Assembly: GCA_022709715.1 (NCBI GenBank)
Contig: JAKLIH010000006.1
Location: 1-46,409, forward strand
Direction: 5' to 3'
DNA: 46,409 nt
Origin: Patescibacteria group bacterium
GTDB taxonomy: Bacteria > Patescibacteriota > Minisyncoccia > UBA6257 > JAKLIH01
The position numbers and the translations under genes are program-made. This document shows positions 6,048-34,273 of this stretch, one piece after another (position 1 is the stretch's first letter; every line of letters begins with the position of its first letter). The notes below the pieces were generated by a model. It was not told where the DNA came from, made no database searches, and worked only from the letters and a program-made list of their open reading frames with translations.

Positions 6048-6824
6048 TTAAAATTCGAATTCAGAAAGGTTTTCTTTAAAAACCAGCAATTTATTGAGAT
6101 CAGTTTTATCAAATATAAAATTGGATATATCGTTTTCTAGTTCAGACATATTAATATTTTTCAAAAATTCTTGCAATTTGTTTTTTAGCTCAGCACTATC
6201 ATTAATATTCATTTTTATTTTTAAATAATCATAATTGGGCTTGGTTTTGGCTATTAAAAAAATAATATCATAAATATCTCGACCAAGAACTCGATTGCGT
6301 TCAAATAAAGCTCTGATTTTTTGAGAAAGTATAATATTAATTGGAGTTACGTTTATTTTCGTAAGAACATCAAATTTTTGAATTAATTTTAAATCGGGCT
6401 GGTATGTAAAATTATGAGAAGCAGTATCTATTTGGATTAAAAGTTTTTCATCTTTATATACTGATAAGTCCAATTCTTTAAGCAAGTTTAAAAATTTAAT
6501 ATTGCCCCGAAAAGCACCTTTTTCTGATATATCGTATTCTATTTTATAGCCTTCTAGCTCTAATTTAGCAATTATTATAGCCATTAATTCTTTAAACTCT
6601 TCAACGGTAATACCAAAATTATCAAAATCCAAATCTTCGGAAAATCTTTGATTATTATATATAATTCTCAAAGCCGTGCCTCCTAAAAACGATAATTTTG
6701 ATATAAATTTTGAGTTAAAAATAATATTTAATATCTTGTATTGCAGATACTCTCTTAGAATGGCTCTGCTTTTATTAGCTAAATTACTTGGATATTCTTT
6801 TGCTATCTCTGAAAGATTGATCAT
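6048..6824 (-). CDS. abiEii: AbiEii-type nucleotidyltransferase toxin
   Basis: The 258-residue protein has the nucleotidyltransferase toxin signature FLGGTALRIIY followed by RFSEDLDFD (G-G-T-A-L and the Asp pair of the metal site, about residues 48-69). It also has the later KIRALFERNRVLGRDIYDI segment (K-x-R and R-D-x-Y-D) typical of AbiEii/MenT enzymes, which add nucleotides to target RNAs. The start overlaps the upstream antitoxin by about 40 bases. This is a type IV toxin-antitoxin and abortive infection module. The stop is TAA, followed at once by a palindrome pair. Confidence 0.9.
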   Translation of the reverse strand: MINLSEIAKEYPSNLANKSRAILREYLQYKILNIIFNSKFISKLSFLGGTALRIIYNNQRFSEDLDFDNFGITVEEFKELMAIIIAKLELEGYKIEYDISEKGAFRGNIKFLNLLKELDLSVYKDEKLLIQIDTASHNFTYQPDLKLIQKFDVLTKINVTPINIILSQKIRALFERNRVLGRDIYDIIFLIAKTKPNYDYLKIKMNINDSAELKNKLQEFLKNINMSELENDISNFIFDKTDLNKLLVFKENLSEFEF

Positions 6825-12601: not shown

Positions 12602-12967
12602 ATGTCAAATCCAAAACGATTCGCAAGCTTTCAAGCCAGCATGGTGAATTACGAAAGACATCAAGACCATGTTATTGCTTCGTTCTCTCAATTTTTAGTA
12701 AGATATCCGCTGTTGCCTTTAAATGTTGGCAGCATCATATTGGGTTATCCGGAACCAGGTGTATTACCTAAGAAACCGAACAACTTAATTTCGATCTACA
12801 CTATTAATCCTGGCACTGTATCTGATATTGAAAGAAAGGTGGTTGAAAGTGTAATAACAAAAAAAGTTCTCGAACCATTCAAGAAAGAACTATTACAAGA
12901 AGGACCGTTCAAGGGTCGTCAAGACATCGTAGACGCAATTGTATTATCACAATGTGAAGAAAGGTGA
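12602..12967 (+). CDS. Hypothetical protein, 121 aa, TGA-terminated (cassette class)
   Basis: ATG 12602 follows a perfect AGGAGG at 9-base spacing. I recognise no family; the sequence is soluble with a KKVLEPFKKELLQE helix. The last codon, AGG, is followed by TGA (12965-12967) with the next gene starting 5 bases later. If TGA were Trp, as in the core genes, the frame would run about 45 codons further inside the next gene in a different frame. TGA must therefore stop translation here. It forms an operon with the gene at 12973. Confidence 0.7.
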   Translation: MSNPKRFASFQASMVNYERHQDHVIASFSQFLVRYPLLPLNVGSIILGYPEPGVLPKKPNNLISIYTINPGTVSDIERKVVESVITKKVLEPFKKELLQEGPFKGRQDIVDAIVLSQCEER

Positions 12968-13961: not shown

Positions 13962-14225
13962 TCAAATGCGTTTATAATCACTTAACTTGAATGGACAACA
14001 GAATGTTGCTCCTTCGTCAAGCTCGAACTTGAACCAGAGCACTTTTGTAAATTCGGAACAATGTTCACAATCCGTATCTGGTCCTGGAACGCCTACTCCT
14101 AATACTACACCTTTTTCCCCTCTATAGCTGACCATATCACCTACATTGAAACCAAATTTATTGCAAGCTTCATTCGAATCATCTATAGTAATTTCGTCAC
14201 CAACAACTGTAGTTATCGTTTTCAT
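13962..14225 (-). CDS. SH3-like small protein, TGA-terminated (cassette class)
   Basis: The 87-residue protein has FNVGDMVSYRGEKGVVLGVG, an SH3/KOW-like strand-turn pattern, and two Cys pairs (CEHC, FCC). It is a paralogue in layout of the gene at 31472 (FNVGDRVVFDDGDEGTVIGYG). The role is unknown, perhaps nucleic acid or protein binding. AAAAAGGAG precedes the ATG. The stop TGA is followed at once by a strong terminator, making TGA=stop unavoidable here. Trp in VLWFKF is TGG. Confidence 0.72.
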   Translation of the reverse strand: MKTITTVVGDEITIDDSNEACNKFGFNVGDMVSYRGEKGVVLGVGVPGPDTDCEHCSEFTKVLWFKFELDEGATFCCPFKLSDYKRI

Positions 14226-16525: not shown

Positions 16526-16556
16526 AAACATCGCCAAGCAATATTGGCGATGTTTT
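16526..16556. terminator. Bidirectional terminator between cassette and xer gene
   Basis: ACATCGCCAA/TTGGCGATGT hairpin, with T runs on the plus side and A/T-rich sequence on the other. It separates convergent genes ending at 16517 (+) and 16556 (-). Confidence 0.8.
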
Positions 16557-17491
16557 TATTTATTTATTCCTTTGCCATGAAACTTTTGATAAGTTTCTTT
16601 TAGAGCTTTATTGGTTAAGTGTGTATAAATTTGAGTGGTAGCAACTGAAGAGTGGCCGAGCATGGATTGGACAGAACGCAAATCGGCTCCATTTTGAAGT
16701 AAGTCAGTAGCAAAACAATGACGTAATGTATGGGGTACAACTTTTTTAGTAATGCCAGCTTTGGTAGAATAATATTTTATAATGCGTTCAATAGATCGAG
16801 TGGTCAAGCGTGTATATTTTTTATTTTTGATATTAGGCAAACTAATAAACATTGGTTCGTCCACAATATCTTTTCGAGCTTTTAATCAGTCCATTAAATA
16901 TTTTTTAGCCCGATCGGACAAAAACACAACTCTAATTTTTCTTCCCTTACCTCTAACTGGAAATTCGCCAGTTTGAAAGTTTACACTATTGAGATTGAGT
17001 GAGCAAAGTTCGGACACACGAAGGCCGGTAGAAAAAAGTAATTCCAAAATGGCTTTATCTCGAATACCTCTAGTGTCAGAAATATCCGGAGCGTCTAATA
17101 ATCTCATTAGTTCGTCTTCAGAAATAATATTGATTTCGCGATCACCCGCTTTGGGTAAATCAATCTTATCCGGGGAAATAACATCAATGTCGCGACGAAT
17201 TAAATATTTTAAAAAATTACGTAGAGCAATAATATAATAACCTTGAGTGTTCTTTTTTCTTTGTTCACCCGAATCAACAATTTCACGATTTAAAAATAAA
17301 CGATATTCACGCAATGAATCGTAGGATATATCTTTAGGAATTAAAGTTTCGTAACTTTTACCAAGATAGCTAGAAAGCCATCTTAAAAAATGCAAAATAT
17401 ATCGCTCGTAATTATCGCGAGTGTTAATACTTCGATTTTTTTCTATCTCAATGAAGTTGAGATAATCTGTGAGAAGGGGTTTTAAAAGCAT
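16556..17491 (-). CDS. Xer-family tyrosine recombinase (one UGA read as Trp)
   Basis: ATG 17491 to TAA 16556 gives 311 residues; TGA at 16886-16888 (LMDWLKARKD) joins the two halves. The N-terminal SAM-like DNA-binding domain (5-100) is followed by the catalytic domain. The active-site set is complete: R158 in TGLRVSEL, a Lys in GKGRK, H254-x-x-R257 in PHTLRH, H280 in LGHSS and Tyr289 in TTQIYTH. It probably resolves chromosome dimers as a lone XerC/D; a role in mobilising the neighbouring cassettes is possible but unproven. There is no clear Shine-Dalgarno. Confidence 0.9.
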
Positions 17492-17666: not shown

Positions 17667-18011
17667 TCATCTTACTCTTGACTCCCTTCCTTTCCGAACG
17701 AGTTCTTTAAACTCGCCCGTTTTCTTCAGATCTTTCAAAATCGTTGCTCTGGGATCGTCCCGGAACGAATAGTGATTCAAGATCTGCTGTTCAGATAAGC
17801 CATCTTTTGACATCATAAAAATGGCTGCTTTTATTTCTGCTACGGCGTTTACGCTGTCGTTTTTAACTACTGTATAAATGCCAAAAACTAATACTGCAGC
17901 TACTACTGCAACTAGCATCTTATGCAGAAATTTCTTAACCGGCGGTTTTTCGTAAACTACCATAGCTATAGCCATCACTATTGCAAAAAAACTAACTTTA
18001 TTTTTTTTCAT
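17667..18011 (-). CDS. Membrane protein, 114 aa, TGA-terminated (cassette class)
   Basis: The start is placed at ATG 18011, after TAAAGGAGAA, not 13 codons upstream. Two hydrophobic segments (SFFAIVMAIAMVV and MLVAVVAAVLVFGIYTVV) are followed by a charged tail containing DGLSEQQILNHYSFRDDPRA. The function is unknown. It ends in TGA with a TAA three codons on, so read-through would add only two residues. It probably forms an operon with the gene at 18139 or has a weaker promoter of its own. Confidence 0.62.
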   Translation of the reverse strand: MKKNKVSFFAIVMAIAMVVYEKPPVKKFLHKMLVAVVAAVLVFGIYTVVKNDSVNAVAEIKAAIFMMSKDGLSEQQILNHYSFRDDPRATILKDLKKTGEFKELVRKGRESRVR

Positions 18012-18138: not shown

Positions 18139-18471
18139 TTAACGCACGTCTATTTGGGTGTGCGTTTTATCCTTTGTGACTGTGACAATAACATTGTGTT
18201 CAATACCATCCGGGGTAGTTAATACCTTCTTGGAAAAGGTATAAAAATATCCTTTTCCAAGATCCATACAATCTTGTCCTCCCCATTTGGATCGAATGGC
18301 GTATGGCAAGTTTTCGCTAACCACTTGTGGCAATAACATACCGCTAAAACCCACGGAATGCGGTGGTTGGGTATATTTGCGATAAATACCATAGCCGAAA
18401 CCAGCTAAGATAAATGACAACAAACCACATAGCACCAACGAGCCAACATCGATCTTCATTTTCCTGGACAT
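18139..18471 (-). CDS. Single-pass membrane protein, 110 aa (cassette class)
   Basis: ATG 18471 follows AGGAGGGTTTTATT. One membrane helix (VGSLVLCGLLSFILAGFGYGI) precedes an extracytoplasmic domain with one Cys and the closing strand VIVTVTKDKTHTQIDV. The function is unknown. Trp (SKWGGQD) is TGG and the stop is TAA. It has a consensus promoter and an unusually long leader containing a 22 bp-arm hairpin. Confidence 0.62.
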   Translation of the reverse strand: MSRKMKIDVGSLVLCGLLSFILAGFGYGIYRKYTQPPHSVGFSGMLLPQVVSENLPYAIRSKWGGQDCMDLGKGYFYTFSKKVLTTPDGIEHNVIVTVTKDKTHTQIDVR

Positions 18472-24739: not shown

Positions 24740-25024
24740 TCATGAGGCGGATGAATCAGTGATTTCGTCGCCAAAAGATGGAAAGGAATCGAGCGATCCC
24801 GGATAATCTTTTGTGGTGTGTTGATCGTCCGGCAATGGGTCTAATCTACTGAGATTGATTTCATCAAAGTTGAAACACTTTGCAGGAAGTATTTGTATGG
24901 CAAGTTTAGCCATCCAATATTCCATACCATACTTGATGATTCTCACTAAGTTTGGGTCATCGGTTTCAAATGTGACCATAAACGGCTTATAGCCACGACT
25001 GTTTATTCGAAACTTTCTTTTCAT
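24740..25024 (-). CDS. Hypothetical protein, 94 aa, TGA-terminated (cassette class)
   Basis: The N-terminal half is a mixed alpha/beta segment (KPFMVTFETDDPNLVRIIKY), and the C-terminus is acidic and probably disordered. ATG follows GGAGGGGAATAAA. Trp in YWMAK is TGG. It ends in TGA 12 bases before the terminator hairpin; read-through would continue into that hairpin before meeting TAA. No family is recognised. Confidence 0.65.
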   Translation of the reverse strand: MKRKFRINSRGYKPFMVTFETDDPNLVRIIKYGMEYWMAKLAIQILPAKCFNFDEINLSRLDPLPDDQHTTKDYPGSLDSFPSFGDEITDSSAS

Positions 25025-25140: not shown

Positions 25141-25386
25141 TCATGATGGTTGCTGACGTTGTAATAGAGTAATATCATCTTGTAAATCTCTAATCTTCTT
25201 TCGGGATTTAGCTTGATCTGTTAATAATTCGCCTTTTTCAATTTGCAGAATATTAATTTCTGTTACAAGGTTACCAAAGAGAGGTTCCAAAACAAAAAAC
25301 ACATAATCAGCGGTTAGAGCATCACCCTTTTTAATCTCTTCCTTTAGATGATCCATTTTGGTCTTAATCTCATCTAAATTAATCAC
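25141..25386 (-). CDS. Coiled-coil small protein, 81 aa, TGA-terminated, GTG start (cassette class)
   Basis: The start is set at GTG 25386, 7 bases after AAAGGAG and overlapping the TGA of the upstream gene as GTGA. An alternative ATG 8 codons upstream lies inside that gene without a Shine-Dalgarno. The product is helical with a C-terminal heptad region (DQAKSRKKIRDLQDDITLLQ). It is terminated by TGA directly before a strong hairpin, so TGA=Trp would read through the terminator. The function is unknown. Confidence 0.7.
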   Translation of the reverse strand: MINLDEIKTKMDHLKEEIKKGDALTADYVFFVLEPLFGNLVTEINILQIEKGELLTDQAKSRKKIRDLQDDITLLQRQQPS

Positions 25387-25571
25387 AATTTTACTCCTTT
25401 CTTGAACCAACTAGTTAAACGTTGGAATAAAGGTCGCTTTACTTCTTCAATTTGCAGAGCTTCGGTAGTGTTTTGCAAAACTGGACAGTCTAGGTTTGTG
25501 ACTTCACCAATGAACGTACAGGGTTCTTTGCATTTTGGATTGTTGCAAATAAACGTTGCCTTTTCAGACAT
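25383..25571 (-). CDS. Small zinc-finger-like protein, 62 aa, TGA-terminated (cassette class)
   Basis: The start has GGAGGGAAAG. N-terminal FICNNPKCKEPC and a later Cys suggest a small metal-binding site, followed by a basic amphipathic C-terminus (PLFQRLTSWFKKGVKL). Its TGA stop overlaps the GTG start of the downstream gene, the classic coupling geometry of standard-code operons. No family is recognised. Confidence 0.68.
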   Translation of the reverse strand: MSEKATFICNNPKCKEPCTFIGEVTNLDCPVLQNTTEALQIEEVKRPLFQRLTSWFKKGVKL

Positions 25572-25719: not shown

Positions 25720-25977
25720 ATGAGAATCATTGGCAGGAAGAAAAATGAACATGACGCGTTCATTAACAAGCAATTACAAAAATGGATAAAAAGCAATTTG
25801 AATGACGAAGGATTAATCCAAAATAGATTAGTCATTTATTTAACTGGTTTGTTTTATAGTGGCCAGAAACAATATGCCATATCAAAAATCGCAGAAATCA
25901 TTGAAAAGCTGAGTAAACACAATTGTGAAGAAGTCCAATACCAAGAGATATTAAAATTGCAAAAAGAATTCAAATAA
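25720..25977 (+). CDS. Hypothetical protein, 85 aa (cassette class)
   Basis: ATG follows AATTAGGAGGTTAAA. The product is basic and helical (EHDAFINKQLQKWIKSNLND, then a hydrophobic VIYLTGLFYSGQ and a lysine-rich end). It could be a small helical bundle; no family is recognised. The stop is TAA, and the terminator follows 5 bases later. Confidence 0.65.
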   Translation: MRIIGRKKNEHDAFINKQLQKWIKSNLNDEGLIQNRLVIYLTGLFYSGQKQYAISKIAEIIEKLSKHNCEEVQYQEILKLQKEFK

Positions 25978-26017: not shown

Positions 26018-26082
26018 TTTTGTGAAAAATTTTAAAATAAAGATAAAAAGGATTTTTAGCGTTGATGCTTTGATTTATAATT

Positions 26083-26112
26083 AAAAAGAGGGAGAAACTT
26101 AATCCCTCTTTA
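26083..26112 (-). terminator. Terminator of the left 64 aa gene
   Basis: AAAGAGGGA/TCCCTCTTT hairpin shared with the right copy at 27703-27728. Confidence 0.75.
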
Positions 26113-26119
26113 AAAGAGA

Positions 26120-26314
26120 CTATACAAAAGACAATTTTCTGTAACGCTCTTGAACGTTTTGGGGCAGTCCACTACTGGTAATAATGGACGATAAAACTTC
26201 ATAAACATTACTTCCTGTATTGCGATTTTTACTTTTTACTATATTCACAAGATTCTCTAGGATTGCTTCTTTGCCTTCGTCAGTAATGTCTACGCCATCA
26301 AAAATACTTTTCAT
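26120..26314 (-). CDS. Small helical protein, 64 aa, left paralogue (cassette class)
   Basis: The sequence has DITDEGKEAILENLVNIVKS, then NTGSNVYEVLSSIITSSGLP. It matches the gene at 27735 position by position (NHTGSNVWGVLGILVDNSGL). AAGGAGGAAAAA precedes ATG; the stop is TAG. The function is unknown; all-helical with a conserved TGSNV turn. Confidence 0.68.
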   Translation of the reverse strand: MKSIFDGVDITDEGKEAILENLVNIVKSKNRNTGSNVYEVLSSIITSSGLPQNVQERYRKLSFV

Positions 26315-26357
26315 GTTTTTCCTCCTTTCTTACTTTCTTGATAAACCTGCTAATAAG

Positions 26358-26386
26358 ATACTATCACTCACACATGTGCTTGTCAA
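26358..26386 (-). promoter_or_regulatory. Promoter TTGACA-17-TAGTAT
   Basis: Nearly identical to the right copy's promoter at 27973, including the GTGTGAGTG spacer. Confidence 0.85.
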
Positions 26387-26402
26387 ATTTTAAAATAAAG
26401 AT

Positions 26403-26456
26403 AAAAAGGATTTATGTTTAGCTAAAAATCCTTTTTATCCGATAAAAAGGATTTTT
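26403..26456. repeat. AAAAAGGATTT inverted repeats
   Basis: Three alternating copies of ATAAAAAGGATTT and its complement just upstream of the ATPase gene, with another at 26044. They form alternative hairpins and may be a terminator or leader for the ATPase gene. Confidence 0.5.
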
Positions 26457-26513
26457 ATCATTGACAAAATACAAATTATCTGATAATATATATGAAAATA
26501 TTAACTTTTTATT

Positions 26514-27695
26514 ATGTTTATAAAACGCAGGATATATGATGATGTTTGAGATTATTTAAAAGTAGATGAAATAGCATTAATTACTGGCCCTAGACAAACC
26601 GGTAAAACAACTATGCTTTTCCATATGTATTCTAAATTAAAAAAAGAAGGAAAACGATGCTATTTTTTTAGTTTAGAAGACCCTACTCTGTTAGCTAAAT
26701 TAGATGAACATCCAGACAATTTAATAAATATTATAGAAGGAATAGATAAAGAAAAAAAATATATATTTATAGATGAAATACAATATTTAAAAAATCCTTC
26801 TAATTTTCTCAAATTTAATTATGATAAATACAAAGGGAAAATAAAATTAATTGTTACTGGATCTTCAGCTTTTTATATTGATAAAAAATTTAAAGATTCT
26901 TTAGCTGGAAGGAAAAGAATATTTTTCCTTAATGTGTTTTCTTTTGAAGAATTTTTATTAGCAAAAAAACTAAAAATTAAAGATTTAAAATTATCAGATA
27001 AAAAAGAATTGATGAACGAATATATTACTTATGGTGGTTATCCAAGGGTAATACTTTCAGAAGATAATGAAGAAAAGAAAATAATTTTACACGATATTGC
27101 TTATGCTTATACCAAAAGAGATATTGATGATGCTGGGATTCAGAAAGATGAAATATTTTATAAACTTTTTGTATTACTATCGGATCAAATAGGCAAAACA
27201 ATAAATATTAATGAATTAGCTAATACTTTAAATGTTTCTAAAACCATAATAAATAATTTTTTATATATTATGAGAAAATCTTTTCATATTTATTTAGTCA
27301 GTCCATATTTTAGAAATTTAAGAAAAGAACTTACAAAAATGAATAAAATATATTTTAATGATTTTGGTTTGCGTAATGTTTTTTTAAATAATTTTGATAA
27401 ATTAGAATATAGAGATGATAAAGGAGAAATTTTAGAAAATATGATTTATAAAAAATTATTAGAAACTAATGATGAAATAAATATAAATTATTGAAGTACA
27501 ATTGATAAAAATGAAGTGGATTTTGTGGTTGGAAATAAAATAGCTTATGAAAGTAAATTCAAAGTATCTAAAATAACTCCTAAAAATTATATTAAATTTA
27601 AAGAAACGTATCCTAAAATTAATTTAAAATATATTTATTATGATAAAGATATAGAAAGAGATAATGATGACTATATTAATTTCTTTGATTTATAA
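26514..27695 (+). CDS. AAA-type ATPase with DUF4143-like C-terminus (two UGA-Trp)
   Basis: ATG 26514 to TAA 27695 gives 393 residues; TGA codons encode Trp in DDVWDYLK and INYWSTID. Walker A GPRQTGKTT (25-33), Walker B YIFIDEIQYL and sensor LIVTGSSAF match the AAA_14 family, and the C-terminal part matches DUF4143 (winged helix, then a restriction-like fold with VDFVVGNKIAYESKF, compare V-D-F/Y-x-E-x-K). The biochemical role is unknown; many are mobile or defence-related. It is flanked by two paralogous small cassettes in direct repeats. Confidence 0.9.
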
Positions 27696-27702
27696 TTAAA
27701 AA

Positions 27703-27728
27703 AGAGGGAGAAGATTAATCCCTCTTTT
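27703..27728 (-). terminator. Terminator of the right 64 aa gene
   Basis: AAAGAGGGA/TCCCTCTTTTT. The TGA at 27735 lies 6 bases before it on the minus strand. Confidence 0.75.
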
Positions 27729-27734
27729 TGACCT

Positions 27735-27929
27735 TCATTTCAAAATTTGGTCATTGAGTGCTTTTCGAGTTTCGTCCGGCAAACCACTATTGTCCACGAG
27801 GATTCCCAACACTCCCCACACATTTGACCCCGTGTGGTTATCTTCTTTTAGTACCAAAGAAATAGTGTTTTTTAGGAGTTTTTGTTTGTCCTTTTCACTG
27901 ATATTGATACCAGCAAAAATATTTGCCAT
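27735..27929 (-). CDS. Small helical protein, 64 aa, right paralogue, TGA-terminated (cassette class)
   Basis: Paralogue of the gene at 26120, sharing ISEKDKQKLLKN-like helices and the TGSNV turn. It ends AAA TGA where the left paralogue ends TAG, with the terminator at once. Two paralogues of equal length therefore stop at the same alignment position, one with TAG and one with TGA. That is direct evidence that TGA is a stop in this gene class. Trp (SNVWGVL) is TGG. Confidence 0.75.
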   Translation of the reverse strand: MANIFAGINISEKDKQKLLKNTISLVLKEDNHTGSNVWGVLGILVDNSGLPDETRKALNDQILK

Positions 27930-27972
27930 GTTTTTCCTCCTTTCTTACTTTCTTGATAAACCTGCTAATAAG

Positions 27973-28001
27973 ATACTACCACTCACACACACGTTTGTCA
28001 A
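27973..28001 (-). promoter_or_regulatory. Promoter TTGACA-17-TAGTAT
   Basis: Perfect -35 with TGG-extended -10, matching the left copy. Confidence 0.85.
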
Positions 28002-28012
28002 ATTTTAAAATA

Positions 28013-28042
28013 AAATCAACCAAAACATTTCTGTTTTGGTTG
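28013..28042 (-). terminator. Terminator of the 102 aa coiled-coil gene
   Basis: AATCAACCAAAACA/TGTTTTGGTTGATT hairpin, T-rich on the minus strand. Confidence 0.8.
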
Positions 28043-31447: not shown

Positions 31448-31474
31448 AAAGGGAGGAATATAAATTCCTCCCTA
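31448..31474 (-). terminator. Terminator overlapping the stop of the 105 aa gene
   Basis: TAGGGAGGAAT/ATTCCTCCCTTTA hairpin on the minus strand; the TAG stop is part of the stem. Confidence 0.7.
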
Positions 31475-31789
31475 AACGTCTTCTTTTTTGTTTATTAGCT
31501 TTGGCTTACCATATCGACAGAAATGGCTTACTAGGCCATTGTGTTTGTCAAGCGCAATAAAAACAGCCATACAGCGGCCAAAACACAATGTATATTGACC
31601 ATTACTTGGTATACATCGTCTTTGTGCAGCAAATGATGGAATAGGTATCTCGCCATACCCAATTACAGTTCCTTCATCTCCATCGTCAAATACTACCCTA
31701 TCTCCAACATTAAATTCAGAGTTCATGTTGTTTACGATACTGAGTAATACTTTACCACCACCCACAAGTTCTTTTAATAAACCTTCCAT
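31472..31789 (-). CDS. SH3-like small protein, 105 aa (cassette class)
   Basis: ATG follows AGAAGGAGTAAATT. After an N-terminal helix, FNVGDRVVFDDGDEGTVIGYG is the same SH3-like motif as in the gene at 13962, and both have four Cys and a C-terminal lysine-rich end. The two are probably distant paralogues of one cassette family. The function is unknown. The stop is TAG. Confidence 0.66.
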   Translation of the reverse strand: MEGLLKELVGGGKVLLSIVNNMNSEFNVGDRVVFDDGDEGTVIGYGEIPIPSFAAQRRCIPSNGQYTLCFGRCMAVFIALDKHNGLVSHFCRYGKPKLINKKEDV

Positions 31790-31826
31790 AATTTACTCCT
31801 TCTTAGAAATATTGACTACTAAATTA

Positions 31827-31856
31827 AATCTAGCATAAAAAATAATGTTTTGTAAA
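31827..31856 (-). promoter_or_regulatory. Promoter TTTACA-18-TAGATT
   Basis: A weaker version of the cassette consensus, with TGC extension; 38 bases upstream of ATG 31789. Confidence 0.5.
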
Positions 31857-31928
31857 TTATCGCATCAAGCATGCTAAAATCTAAGTGAAATATTAACCAA
31901 AATATGTTAGCTTTGTGCAGAAAAATAT

Positions 31929-32066
31929 TAATCAGAACGGTACCTGGTACCGTTCTGATTAAATTTTAATATGATCGGAACCTGGTTCCGATCATATTAA
32001 AACGATGTTTTAAAAAAATGATTATTGCTCTTTTGTGACAACAATGCCTGGTACCGTTCTGCATTG
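31929..32066. repeat. Cluster of three AACGGTACC-type palindromes
   Basis: First, TAATCAGAACGGTACC-T-complement (31929-31961). Second, TAATATGATCGGAACC-T-complement (about 31966-32000), in which the core itself changed to GGAACC/GGTTCC with pairing kept. Third, a degenerate copy CAATGC...GCATTG with one arm of the core (32042-32066). No gene lies between 31790 and 32152. Confidence 0.75.
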
Positions 32067-32102
32067 CTCATCTCGATTTTTAAATTACTTGACATGTAAT
32101 TA

Positions 32103-32140
32103 AAAAGAGACTTGTCAATTTGTATTAACAAGTCTCTTTT
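32103..32140 (-). terminator. Terminator of the 57 aa gene
   Basis: AAAAGAGACTTGT/ACAAGTCTCTTTT hairpin, T-rich exit on the minus strand. Confidence 0.85.
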
Positions 32141-32152
32141 GGAGCATCGGCT

Positions 32153-32326
32153 TTAATATGTCGGTTGCCCAAATTCGTTGCACTCCTTGCATGGCGCGTC
32201 CAAGCCGCACTGACTACACGTACCCATCGCAAGTGGTTGTTTGCCATGGTCTTCCCACGTATGAGGATGAGGATCAGGCAGATCCTCTGGGAACATATCC
32301 CGATGGCATAACTCACATATAAGCAT
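32153..32326 (-). CDS. Small zinc-finger protein, 57 aa (cassette class)
   Basis: ATG 32326 follows AAAGGAGATAAT; the stop is TAA. Cys pairs CELC near the start and CSQC plus CKEC near the end give a likely two-zinc or rubredoxin-like knuckle arrangement, with a Pro/His/Asp-rich linker (PEDLPDPHPHTWEDHGK) between. Trp is TGG. A longer frame overlapping it on the same strand has no Shine-Dalgarno and no domain sense, so it was set aside. The function is unknown. Confidence 0.72.
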   Translation of the reverse strand: MLICELCHRDMFPEDLPDPHPHTWEDHGKQPLAMGTCSQCGLDAPCKECNEFGQPTY

Positions 32327-32360
32327 ATTATCTCCTTTCTAAATAAAAGTACTTATTATT

Positions 32361-32389
32361 ATTTTATCATATATTAACCAATTGATCAA
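32361..32389 (-). promoter_or_regulatory. Promoter TTGATC-17-TAAAAT
   Basis: TGA-extended -10 and 17-base spacer, 35 bases upstream of ATG 32326. Confidence 0.65.
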
Positions 32390-32400
32390 ATTGCTTTCGG

Positions 32401-32559
32401 TGAATCCAAACTCGAAATGCAACATTAGAGGGATTTTTAAAAAGCAAATCAGAATTAATTTTAGTTAAATATAGAACTAAAAATCAAGAATATGATATTG
32501 AAGTTGAAATTAACCTTAGCTTATTTGATGTACAACAATTAAAAAATGGACTACCCTAA
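32401..32559 (+). pseudogene. Possible 3' fragment of a core-type gene
   Basis: An open frame with TGA near its beginning reads WIQTRNATLEGFLKSKSELI, then a hydrophilic segment ending SLFDVQQLKNGLP before TAA (32557). There is no start codon or Shine-Dalgarno, and the left side is occupied by a cassette promoter. It looks like the tail of an AT-rich gene cut by cassette insertion, but it may be chance. Confidence 0.25.
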
Positions 32560-32578
32560 TAGGGTAATCCATTTTTAT
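32546..32578 (-). terminator. Terminator of the 260 aa gene
   Basis: AAAATGGATTACCCTA/TAGGGTAGTCCATTTTTT on the minus strand, with one G-U or mismatch. Confidence 0.8.
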
Positions 32579-32587
32579 TGCTACATA

Positions 32588-33370
32588 CTACGAACCACAC
32601 GCGAAATTGATATCTTTATGTTGAAATATTTTACAACGAGAATCAGAATTAGTATATGGTTTTTGTGTTTCTGGATCTATAATTGAACAAAACCAATCCT
32701 GTGTAATTGATGTTCCGTGATAAGTTTTATGCTCACAGTAATAACACTCGCGTTCTTCACCCCACTGTTTTTCCAAATACTCGTTGTGCATTTTTTGAAA
32801 AACGTCGTGTCCAATATCGTACATCTCAAAGAATTTTTCGAGATCTATTTCTTCAATTCTCGAAAAATTGAAGGGTTTATGGTCCAAACAATAGCATTCG
32901 CCAAGATTTAATTCTCTTGATTCTTTACAAGCCAGTTTGTAATGATAATAGCGACAATCATCGAATATAGCAACTCCCTCTGAATTTAGGTTTTCTCCCT
33001 TCCTATTAGTTACTACACTAATAGGAATATCTTTTACCTCTTTAAGTACATACTTTATGATGCCACTATCAACAGCCTGGTTTGCTCTTCTTACAATCTC
33101 CTTCAGACGAATTTCTTCTGTCATCATACCATAAAAAATCACTTTGCAAATCGGGTTTCTGGCTACGATATCAGCGTATGGTTTCGCCATACGCCGTTTC
33201 CATTCTGAGTCGCTGTTAACTGAACGAAGACCAGAGTCTAAAAATTCCTTCGCACGCATTATGGATGGTCCAGAAATTCCCTCAATCTTATCAGTAAAAG
33301 GCATAAACACTTTTACCTCTTTCCCAAAACGTAAAATCGGAACAGTAACCTTCCTAATCTCTTCTTCCAT
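32588..33370 (-). CDS. Cysteine-rich protein, 260 aa, largest of the cassette class
   Basis: ATG follows AAGGAGGAAAGA. The N-terminal part (1-130) is mixed alpha/beta with a basic stretch (SEWKRRMAKPYADIV). The C-terminal part carries Cys/His clusters (ACKESRELNLGECYCLDH and ECYYCEHKTYHG) likely to bind zinc. I recognise no family. All Trp are TGG, codon use is GC-richer, and the stop is TAG. It has its own promoter, a structured leader of about 165 bases and a terminator. Confidence 0.65.
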   Translation of the reverse strand: MEEEIRKVTVPILRFGKEVKVFMPFTDKIEGISGPSIMRAKEFLDSGLRSVNSDSEWKRRMAKPYADIVARNPICKVIFYGMMTEEIRLKEIVRRANQAVDSGIIKYVLKEVKDIPISVVTNRKGENLNSEGVAIFDDCRYYHYKLACKESRELNLGECYCLDHKPFNFSRIEEIDLEKFFEMYDIGHDVFQKMHNEYLEKQWGEERECYYCEHKTYHGTSITQDWFCSIIDPETQKPYTNSDSRCKIFQHKDINFACGS

Positions 33371-33379
33371 TCTTTCCTC

Positions 33380-33545
33380 CTTAGAGGTGAGTTATATACC
33401 GAATGTAAGCATATAACACTGGCTTTTAATCATTTAAGGGTTTTTCCCACACCATATTAAGTTAATTTATATTAACCCTTTTGCTAGGAGAGCCACGACT
33501 ACGTTCGCCGTTGTGGTAATTTTCTTTTGATAAATTACTGATCAT
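33380..33545 (-). promoter_or_regulatory. Structured 5' leader of the 260 aa gene
   Basis: The leader between promoter and Shine-Dalgarno is unusually long. Likely stems include CCACAACGGCGAACG...CGTGG, AAGGGTT/AACCCTT around a GTGGGAAAA segment, and GTTATATGC/GTATATAAC close to the Shine-Dalgarno. This could be a riboswitch-like or protein-binding leader; no known class is matched. Confidence 0.4.
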
Positions 33546-33574
33546 ATTATAAAACACAAACGATAAAATGTCAA
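33546..33574 (-). promoter_or_regulatory. Promoter TTGACA-17-TATAAT
   Basis: Perfect hexamers and spacing for the gene at 33370. Confidence 0.85.
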
Positions 33575-33634
33575 ATCAATGCACAGGATACTAATATACC
33601 ATGCAGGACTAGGAACATCATTGACACAAATTAA

Positions 33635-33661
33635 AAAGAACGGTGCCTGGCACCGTTCTTT
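33635..33661. repeat. Palindrome variant AAAGAACGGTGCC
   Basis: AAAGAACGGTGCC, T, GGCACCGTTCTTT. The core is GGTGCC/GGCACC instead of GGTACC/GGTACC, a compensated change. It is the only hairpin after the gene ending at 33740, at a distance of about 80 bases. Confidence 0.75.
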
Positions 33662-33739
33662 TGCGAATCGTTTAGATTGTAAATATAGTATTGTGATTCA
33701 ATCTTCTACCCCTACAAAATAGCACATACAAGCAAACAT

Positions 33740-34273
33740 TTATTCATCGCCCAATCTTGTTTTGCTTGATTTTACAATTCCGATAAACAATAACACTGTA
33801 ATTGCTTTTTGAGCTTGGCTACGTACAAAGTTATGAAAGAATATTGGGAAAGTATTACTATTTTTACCATTTGTTCTATAAGATACCAAGTATTTCATCG
33901 GAACTAGATAATCTGGGCATTTCATAAATCGATACGCTACTTGCGTATAATTGTCTTTCCTTATTAATTCTTTCGATTCATAAGGAATTCGAAGTTGCGA
34001 TATAATAATCTTCTTGCCTAAAGAATTGATTATTTTGGCATCAACTTCATGCGTCAAAAATACAATATCGCCATCTAATAAACTATTTAAATTTTCTAAG
34101 ATAACTATTTTTGTATTTTTATCTACCATTATATGCCAAGCATATTCTACGTTTTGTAATATCTGCTCAAAGATATGTTTTTTTCTTTCTTCGTCGGGCT
34201 CGTATATCCGGCCAGCAGAATCAATAATATTTTTGCCAATTTCTGGATCACGATTCAAATATAAATAAACCAT
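33740..34273 (-). CDS. Hypothetical protein, 177 aa, YLY family member 1 (cassette class)
   Basis: It begins MVYLYLNRD after AAGGAAGGAAAGA. The middle has GDIVFLTHEVDAKIINSLG followed by KKIIISQLRIPYESKE. The same order (start MIYLY, NDLVFILNPRDAGIIRKK, then LVITLFIPVESES) occurs in the gene at 38132, so the two are distant paralogues. A C-terminal hydrophobic helix is AQKAITVLLFIGIV. It could be a nucleotide- or nucleic-acid-binding alpha/beta protein; not assigned. The stop is TAA. Confidence 0.65.
   Translation of the reverse strand: MVYLYLNRDPEIGKNIIDSAGRIYEPDEERKKHIFEQILQNVEYAWHIMVDKNTKIVILENLNSLLDGDIVFLTHEVDAKIINSLGKKIIISQLRIPYESKELIRKDNYTQVAYRFMKCPDYLVPMKYLVSYRTNGKNSNTFPIFFHNFVRSQAQKAITVLLFIGIVKSSKTRLGDE

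Follow-up and report, generated by a model that had tools for sequence, protein, structure and literature searches.

The stretch of DNA analyzed here (the window; 46,409 nucleotides, contig JAKLIH010000006.1 of a Patescibacteria group bacterium) forms contig 64 of genome G000 (900 kb, 98.8% complete). Two paralogous genes encoding proteins of 64 amino acids (aa) lie on its reverse strand on either side of an ATPase gene, one ending in TAG and the other in TGA, while the ATPase between them reads TGA as tryptophan (Trp). We describe this pair together with a class of small genes, here called cassettes, that carry the Shine-Dalgarno (SD) sequences and the codon usage of a standard-code organism in a genome whose native genes mostly have neither. 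The features of the locus are as follows:

26027-26088, forward strand: probable scar left by the loss of a second ATPase copy, with repeats of the ATPase upstream region fused to the ATPase 3' end
26085-26111, reverse strand: terminator-like hairpin 3' of the left 64-aa gene
26120-26314, reverse strand: left 64-aa gene, with stop TAG, AAGGAGG 6 nt 5' of the ATG and no internal TGA
26315-26387, reverse strand: left leader, with TTGACA-N17-TAGTAT and AAGGAGG
26514-27695, forward strand: ATPase (AAA_14 and DUF4143) of native style; Trp is encoded by TGA at 26547-26549 and 27492-27494
27696-27737, reverse strand: tail that reading UGA as Trp would add to the right copy, namely WRSKRGINLLPLF and then TAA, the W being the TGA itself
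27699-27729, reverse strand: terminator-like hairpin 3' of the right 64-aa gene, with the stem of the left gene (a 29-nt repeat, 93% identical)
27735-27929, reverse strand: right 64-aa gene, with stop TGA and TGG as its sole Trp codon
27930-28002, reverse strand: right leader, with promoter and SD as in the left leader

The two 64-aa proteins align without gaps at 20/64 identities (31%), and the right copy used as a query recovers the left at E=1e-9. Their 73-nt leaders share 93% identity, whereas the coding sequences share 52% at the DNA level, and the stem AAAGAGGGA...TCCCTCTTT stands directly 3' of both stops (minimum free energies of -11.4 and -13.2 kcal/mol, z about -2). With leaders and hairpins nearly identical and coding sequences far apart, the copies represent a common regulatory frame around strongly diverged coding parts. 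As their final residues are dissimilar, the common stop position stands on equal length and conserved flanks. A sequence-only reading of the window had held that the paralogs stop at TAG and TGA at one aligned position before a common hairpin, and the gapless alignment and the conserved flanks bear this out; it had also noted that the intervening ATPase uses TGA twice as Trp, and this frame, with TGA codons at 26547 and 27492, is indeed open only if TGA is read as an amino acid. The unit of ATPase and convergent 64-aa gene seems, from the arrangement of its repeats, to have been duplicated in tandem, with one ATPase then lost. In the scar, the upstream repeat AAATTTTAAAATAAAGATAAAAAGGATTT is joined to the 3' end CTTTGATTTATAATTAAAAA.

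The predicted structure of the 64-aa protein is a three-helix bundle (predicted local distance difference test score 86.5), and comparison of this model with PDB structures gave no significant match. No homologues of the pair were detected in viral contigs or species-genome contigs, nor in 244 genomes of the order except for two weak matches, the one of these that was inspected appearing antisense to another gene. By itself the pair would therefore be thin evidence on decoding, and the argument developed below draws on the host genome, the cassette class and a sister species.

Decoding in the host follows the modified code. Among the Trp-type codons of long open reading frames (ORFs) in G000, 882 are TGA and 318 TGG (TGA accounting for 73.5% of 1200), and the HisRS, PPDK and ValRS frames are open only with TGA read. 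A single-copy release factor RF1 with the PVT motif is present, a tRNA-Trp(UCA) is found at G000:C20:18597-18671 alongside a tRNA-Trp(CCA), and searches for RF2 found none in G000 and none in G001 or G002, both of which are less complete; most genomes of the order carry RF1 and RF2. Given the established specificities of RF1 and RF2, UGA should not act as a stop in a cell with RF1 only. A second RF-1-domain gene in G000 is a short ORF (140-aa frame) that we take to be probably ArfB-like, and such factors have no specificity for stop codons. The 16S end after helix 45, GAAACATTTCTTTT, lacks CCTCC, and the anti-SD CCUCC was found in 0/9 16S 3' ends of the order (G000, G001 and seven further genomes). 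This agrees with the SD-poor native genes, an SD being absent in 135/144 long TGA-bearing ORFs of G000, and where an organism lacks the anti-SD, SDs are as a rule also missing ahead of its genes (PMC6107228). The combination of RF1 without RF2, tRNA-Trp(UCA) and no anti-SD leads us to expect UGA to be read as Trp here. The sequence-only reading had taken the 64-aa pair as an internal control for dual decoding within one cell; in a genome without RF2 and with tRNA-Trp(UCA) this does not hold, and the pair is instead a mark of genes written for another decoding system. Elsewhere in the order, RF2 searches of three genomes (G004, G018, G026) gave only full-length matches of RF1 strength despite standard-code genes in the sampled stretches, and their RF2 may be missing or unassembled.

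The cassettes are small, mostly orphan genes with their own sigma-70-like promoter, AAGGAGG and often a terminator, and Pfam and PHROGs searches of their proteins returned almost no families. We defined the class as strong-SD ATG ORFs (n=42 in G000) and scored Trp codons in the first 60% of each frame, with frames read through TGA such that TGG and TGA count equally. This part of the 42 ORFs holds 38 TGG and 0 TGA (P about 1e-22 against long ORFs). An in-frame TGA occurs in 15/42, always near the end, and the first TGA lies at most 38 codons from the next TAA or TAG, the end under code 4. The members in the window include seven that stop at TGA, namely the right 64-aa gene and the genes at 12602-12967, 13962-14225, 17667-18011, 24740-25024, 25141-25386 and 25383-25571; in six of these the stop stands at a terminator hairpin or overlaps the following gene as GTGA. 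The spacing from SD to ATG is in excess in G000 (59 against 23.6 expected) and close to expectation in small samples from six other genomes of the order; the value for G002 (41 against 23.9) is not relied on, as the control TGA was likewise raised there (51 against 32). G002 belongs to a sister species of the same genus, the median identity of native orthologues being 79.6%, and the cassettes of the window that bear on the comparison with it are:

12602-12967, forward strand: 121-aa cassette, stop TGA; the G002 homologue also ends in TGA
13962-14225, reverse strand: 87-aa cassette, stop TGA 5' of a hairpin
17667-18011, reverse strand: 114-aa cassette, stop TGA 5' of a hairpin; TAG in G002
18139-18471, reverse strand: 110-aa cassette, stop TAA; TAA in G002
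24740-25024, reverse strand: 94-aa cassette, stop TGA 5' of a hairpin; the G002 orthologue ends in TGA at the identical aligned position
25141-25386, reverse strand: 81-aa cassette, stop TGA 5' of a hairpin; the G002 orthologue ends in TAA at the identical aligned position
25383-25571, reverse strand: 62-aa cassette, stop TGA overlapping the next start (GTGA); the G002 orthologue ends in TAG
25720-25977, forward strand: 85-aa cassette, stop TAA; the G002 orthologue ends in TAG

Ten pairs of cassette homologues are found between G000 and G002 at 39-55% identity, eight of them in matching gene neighbourhoods. The HisRS-PPDK interval of G002 holds the 94-, 81-, 62- and 85-aa genes with order and orientation conserved, and lacks both the ATPase and the 64-aa pair; the PAP2/XerC interval also matches, with four shared cassettes of which one has moved, and the 56-aa and 128-aa pairs sit outside both intervals. 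The stops of the ten pairs (G000/G002) are TGA/TGA in four (the 94-, 121-, 87- and 56-aa genes), TGA/TAG in two (62 and 114 aa), TGA/TAA in the 81-aa gene, and TAA/TAG, TAA/TAA and TAG/TAA in one each. In most pairs the C-terminal alignment extends to the stop, the 87-aa pair being poor at its end, and the tails after the stop differ between homologues except where the DNA itself is conserved as a hairpin or belongs to the next gene. Aligned Trp sites in the cassettes are TGG/TGG in 6/6, against 28/446 (6%) in 146 native pairs, where TGA/TGA accounts for 305 sites and mixed pairs for 113. An SD is retained in 11/11 cassette homologues as opposed to 2/13 native genes with a chance SD; the homologue L047:11559 was recovered without the SD criterion, and the G002 start of the 17667 gene lies 24 codons further in. 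Within cassette pairs, 61% of third codon positions differ, as opposed to 40% of first and 30% of second positions, which indicates that the proteins are under selection, and GC content at third positions (GC3) is 0.35 and 0.39 in the shared cassettes as compared with 0.21 and 0.24 in native genes.

These comparisons of sequences show that the cassettes use TGG for Trp and treat TGA, TAA and TAG as interchangeable stops. Since TGA exchanges with TAA and TAG while Trp stays TGG and the SD is kept, the TGA codons at the ends of these genes are written as stops. The earlier claim that TGA is a stop in cassette genes thus stands with respect to the place of the stop in the class, where G002 exchanges it with TAA or TAG, and falls with respect to a working stop in G000, where RF2 is missing and tRNA-Trp(UCA) present. 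A scenario in which all cassettes are recent arrivals was rejected because part of them is common to G002 in nearly identical gene order. The PPDK-SMC interval (window 31472-34273; L077 9193-9810) holds different cassettes in G000 and G002 and appears as a hot spot of turnover.

Taken as a whole, the coding rules of the cassettes were probably imposed by a canonical-code, SD-using cell, be it through repeated import or through action in a partner cell. The TGA of the right copy would then be a stop in the language of its gene, and G000, on translating it, would insert Trp at the UGA and add an unselected tail of 13 aa, the WRSKRGINLLPLF tail that spans the hairpin of the right copy. The constraint could arise from cassettes being repeatedly imported from canonical-code, SD-using cells, or from their being retained because they would act once the DNA reaches a canonical-code cell, for example a partner bacterium. 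On priors, we rate import as somewhat likelier than expression in a partner cell; it is favoured by the high turnover at PPDK-SMC and by relatives of a PurM-like cassette gene in other Patescibacteria, whereas the cassettes common to matching loci agree less well with it. Same-locus shared genes that keep three canonical marks, together with the presence of a VirB4-like ATPase, favour partner-cell expression, and we put forward only tentatively, as a rather doubtful proposal, that promoter, SD, Trp and stop codons stay canonical because the cassettes act in a standard-code partner bacterium, as T-DNA does. Were this so, recoding would separate the host and cassette gene sets. Several points weigh against a foreign canonical-code cell as the source of these rules and advise caution: the class was picked by its SD, so that class counts hinge on that choice; the shared cassettes offer few aligned Trp sites (6-7); the sequence covered amounts to 418 kb (~46%) of G000 and ~460 kb of G002; and the cassette families tested are without relatives outside the genus. 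Within the order, the 85-aa and 128-aa families occur only in G000 and G002, and neither was found in viral contigs.

If the genes had instead been acquired once and were translated here with UGA as Trp, 7/10 of the shared G000 genes would bear random C-terminal tails. The known decoding (no RF2, tRNA-Trp(UCA)) would suffice for this, and the tails are short (3-38 codons). Yet the shared genes look as old as the split between G000 and G002 while TGG persists as their Trp codon (6/6 sites, as opposed to 6% in native pairs), their SDs are retained without an anti-SD, GC3 still stands apart from that of native genes and, barring the stretches after a hairpin or next gene, the tails of homologues differ, all of which makes a single acquisition improbable. 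We consider it less probable still, and very unlikely, that one cell reads UGA as Trp in native genes and as a true stop in cassettes by way of hairpin context or a specialised factor. The swaps of TGA with TAA and TAG at homologous ends and the TGAs directly 5' of terminator hairpins would fit such a mechanism, but RF2 is lacking, as the published family analysis likewise reports (PMC13092985), the other RF-1-domain ORF is short and, by an inferred label, probably ArfB-like, and SDs in an anti-SD-less cell would be left unexplained. That a Trp codon TGA came to lie by chance where the aligned right copy ends could be entertained for the pair alone, with its 31% identity and unlike terminal residues; set against TGA in 15/42 strong-SD ORFs, near the end and 0 times in the first 60%, and against homologues that swap it for TAA or TAG, it is hardly credible.

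Canonical style is also seen in the PurM-like gene (L059 3817-4935) and in a fusion of SAICAR synthetase with AIR carboxylase (L059 9090-10385), both with TGG only and an SD. Relatives of the PurM-like gene occur in many Patescibacteria, at up to 59% identity and with an SD-like motif, weak in some cases, in 24/29 of them, and in some Syntrophaceae and Woesearchaeota bins. A palindromic repeat, AACGGTACC(A/T)GGTACCGTT, recurs between genes near 6080, 7500, 9950 and 18700 of the window.

A lineage that changes its genetic code is believed to cut itself off from foreign genes. The recoded, SD-less genome described here nevertheless carries dozens of genes in another language, part of them common to two species without conversion. 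Stop codon, Trp codon and SD provide three independent markers by which the genes of two expression systems can be separated within a single genome, and bring within reach of a test the otherwise hardly approachable question of patescibacterial genes that act in a partner cell.

The host itself very probably belongs to the published JAKLIH01 family (order UBA6257, Minisyncoccia), in which four genomes show in-frame UGA at Trp sites, no RF2 and tRNA(UCA) (Nucleic Acids Res 2026, gkag327, PMC13092985): UGA encodes Trp, RF2 is absent and tRNA-Trp(UCA) present, and kinship group f1, to which G000 is assigned here, likewise comprises four genomes. That family was reported to be without UGA stop codons at gene ends (PMC13092985), whereas the orphan cassettes described here end in TGA; the published statement is based on orthogroups with conserved C-termini and would therefore miss them. 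Integron gene cassettes are comparable as clustered small orphan genes, and a XerC-like recombinase (16556-17491) lies among the cassettes here, in native style and conserved with its neighbours in G002. An integron was rejected as a candidate, as the cassettes lie on both strands among housekeeping genes and have promoters and terminators of their own. In the transferred DNA (T-DNA) of Agrobacterium, one cell carries genes with the expression signals of another, and the principle would be alike if the cassettes act in a partner cell. Of T-DNA-like machinery only a VirB4-like TraG P-loop ATPase (G000:C97:22788) was seen, no search having been aimed at border repeats or a relaxase target, and patescibacterial type IV secretion systems are mostly without a relaxase (PMC12102498). 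Horizontally acquired standard-code genes in recoded bacteria offer a further parallel, sharing standard-code style inside a genome with TGA as Trp. The cassettes differ from these in that part of the standard-code set is common to two species at matching loci, with TGG unconverted to TGA and SDs kept in the absence of an anti-SD.
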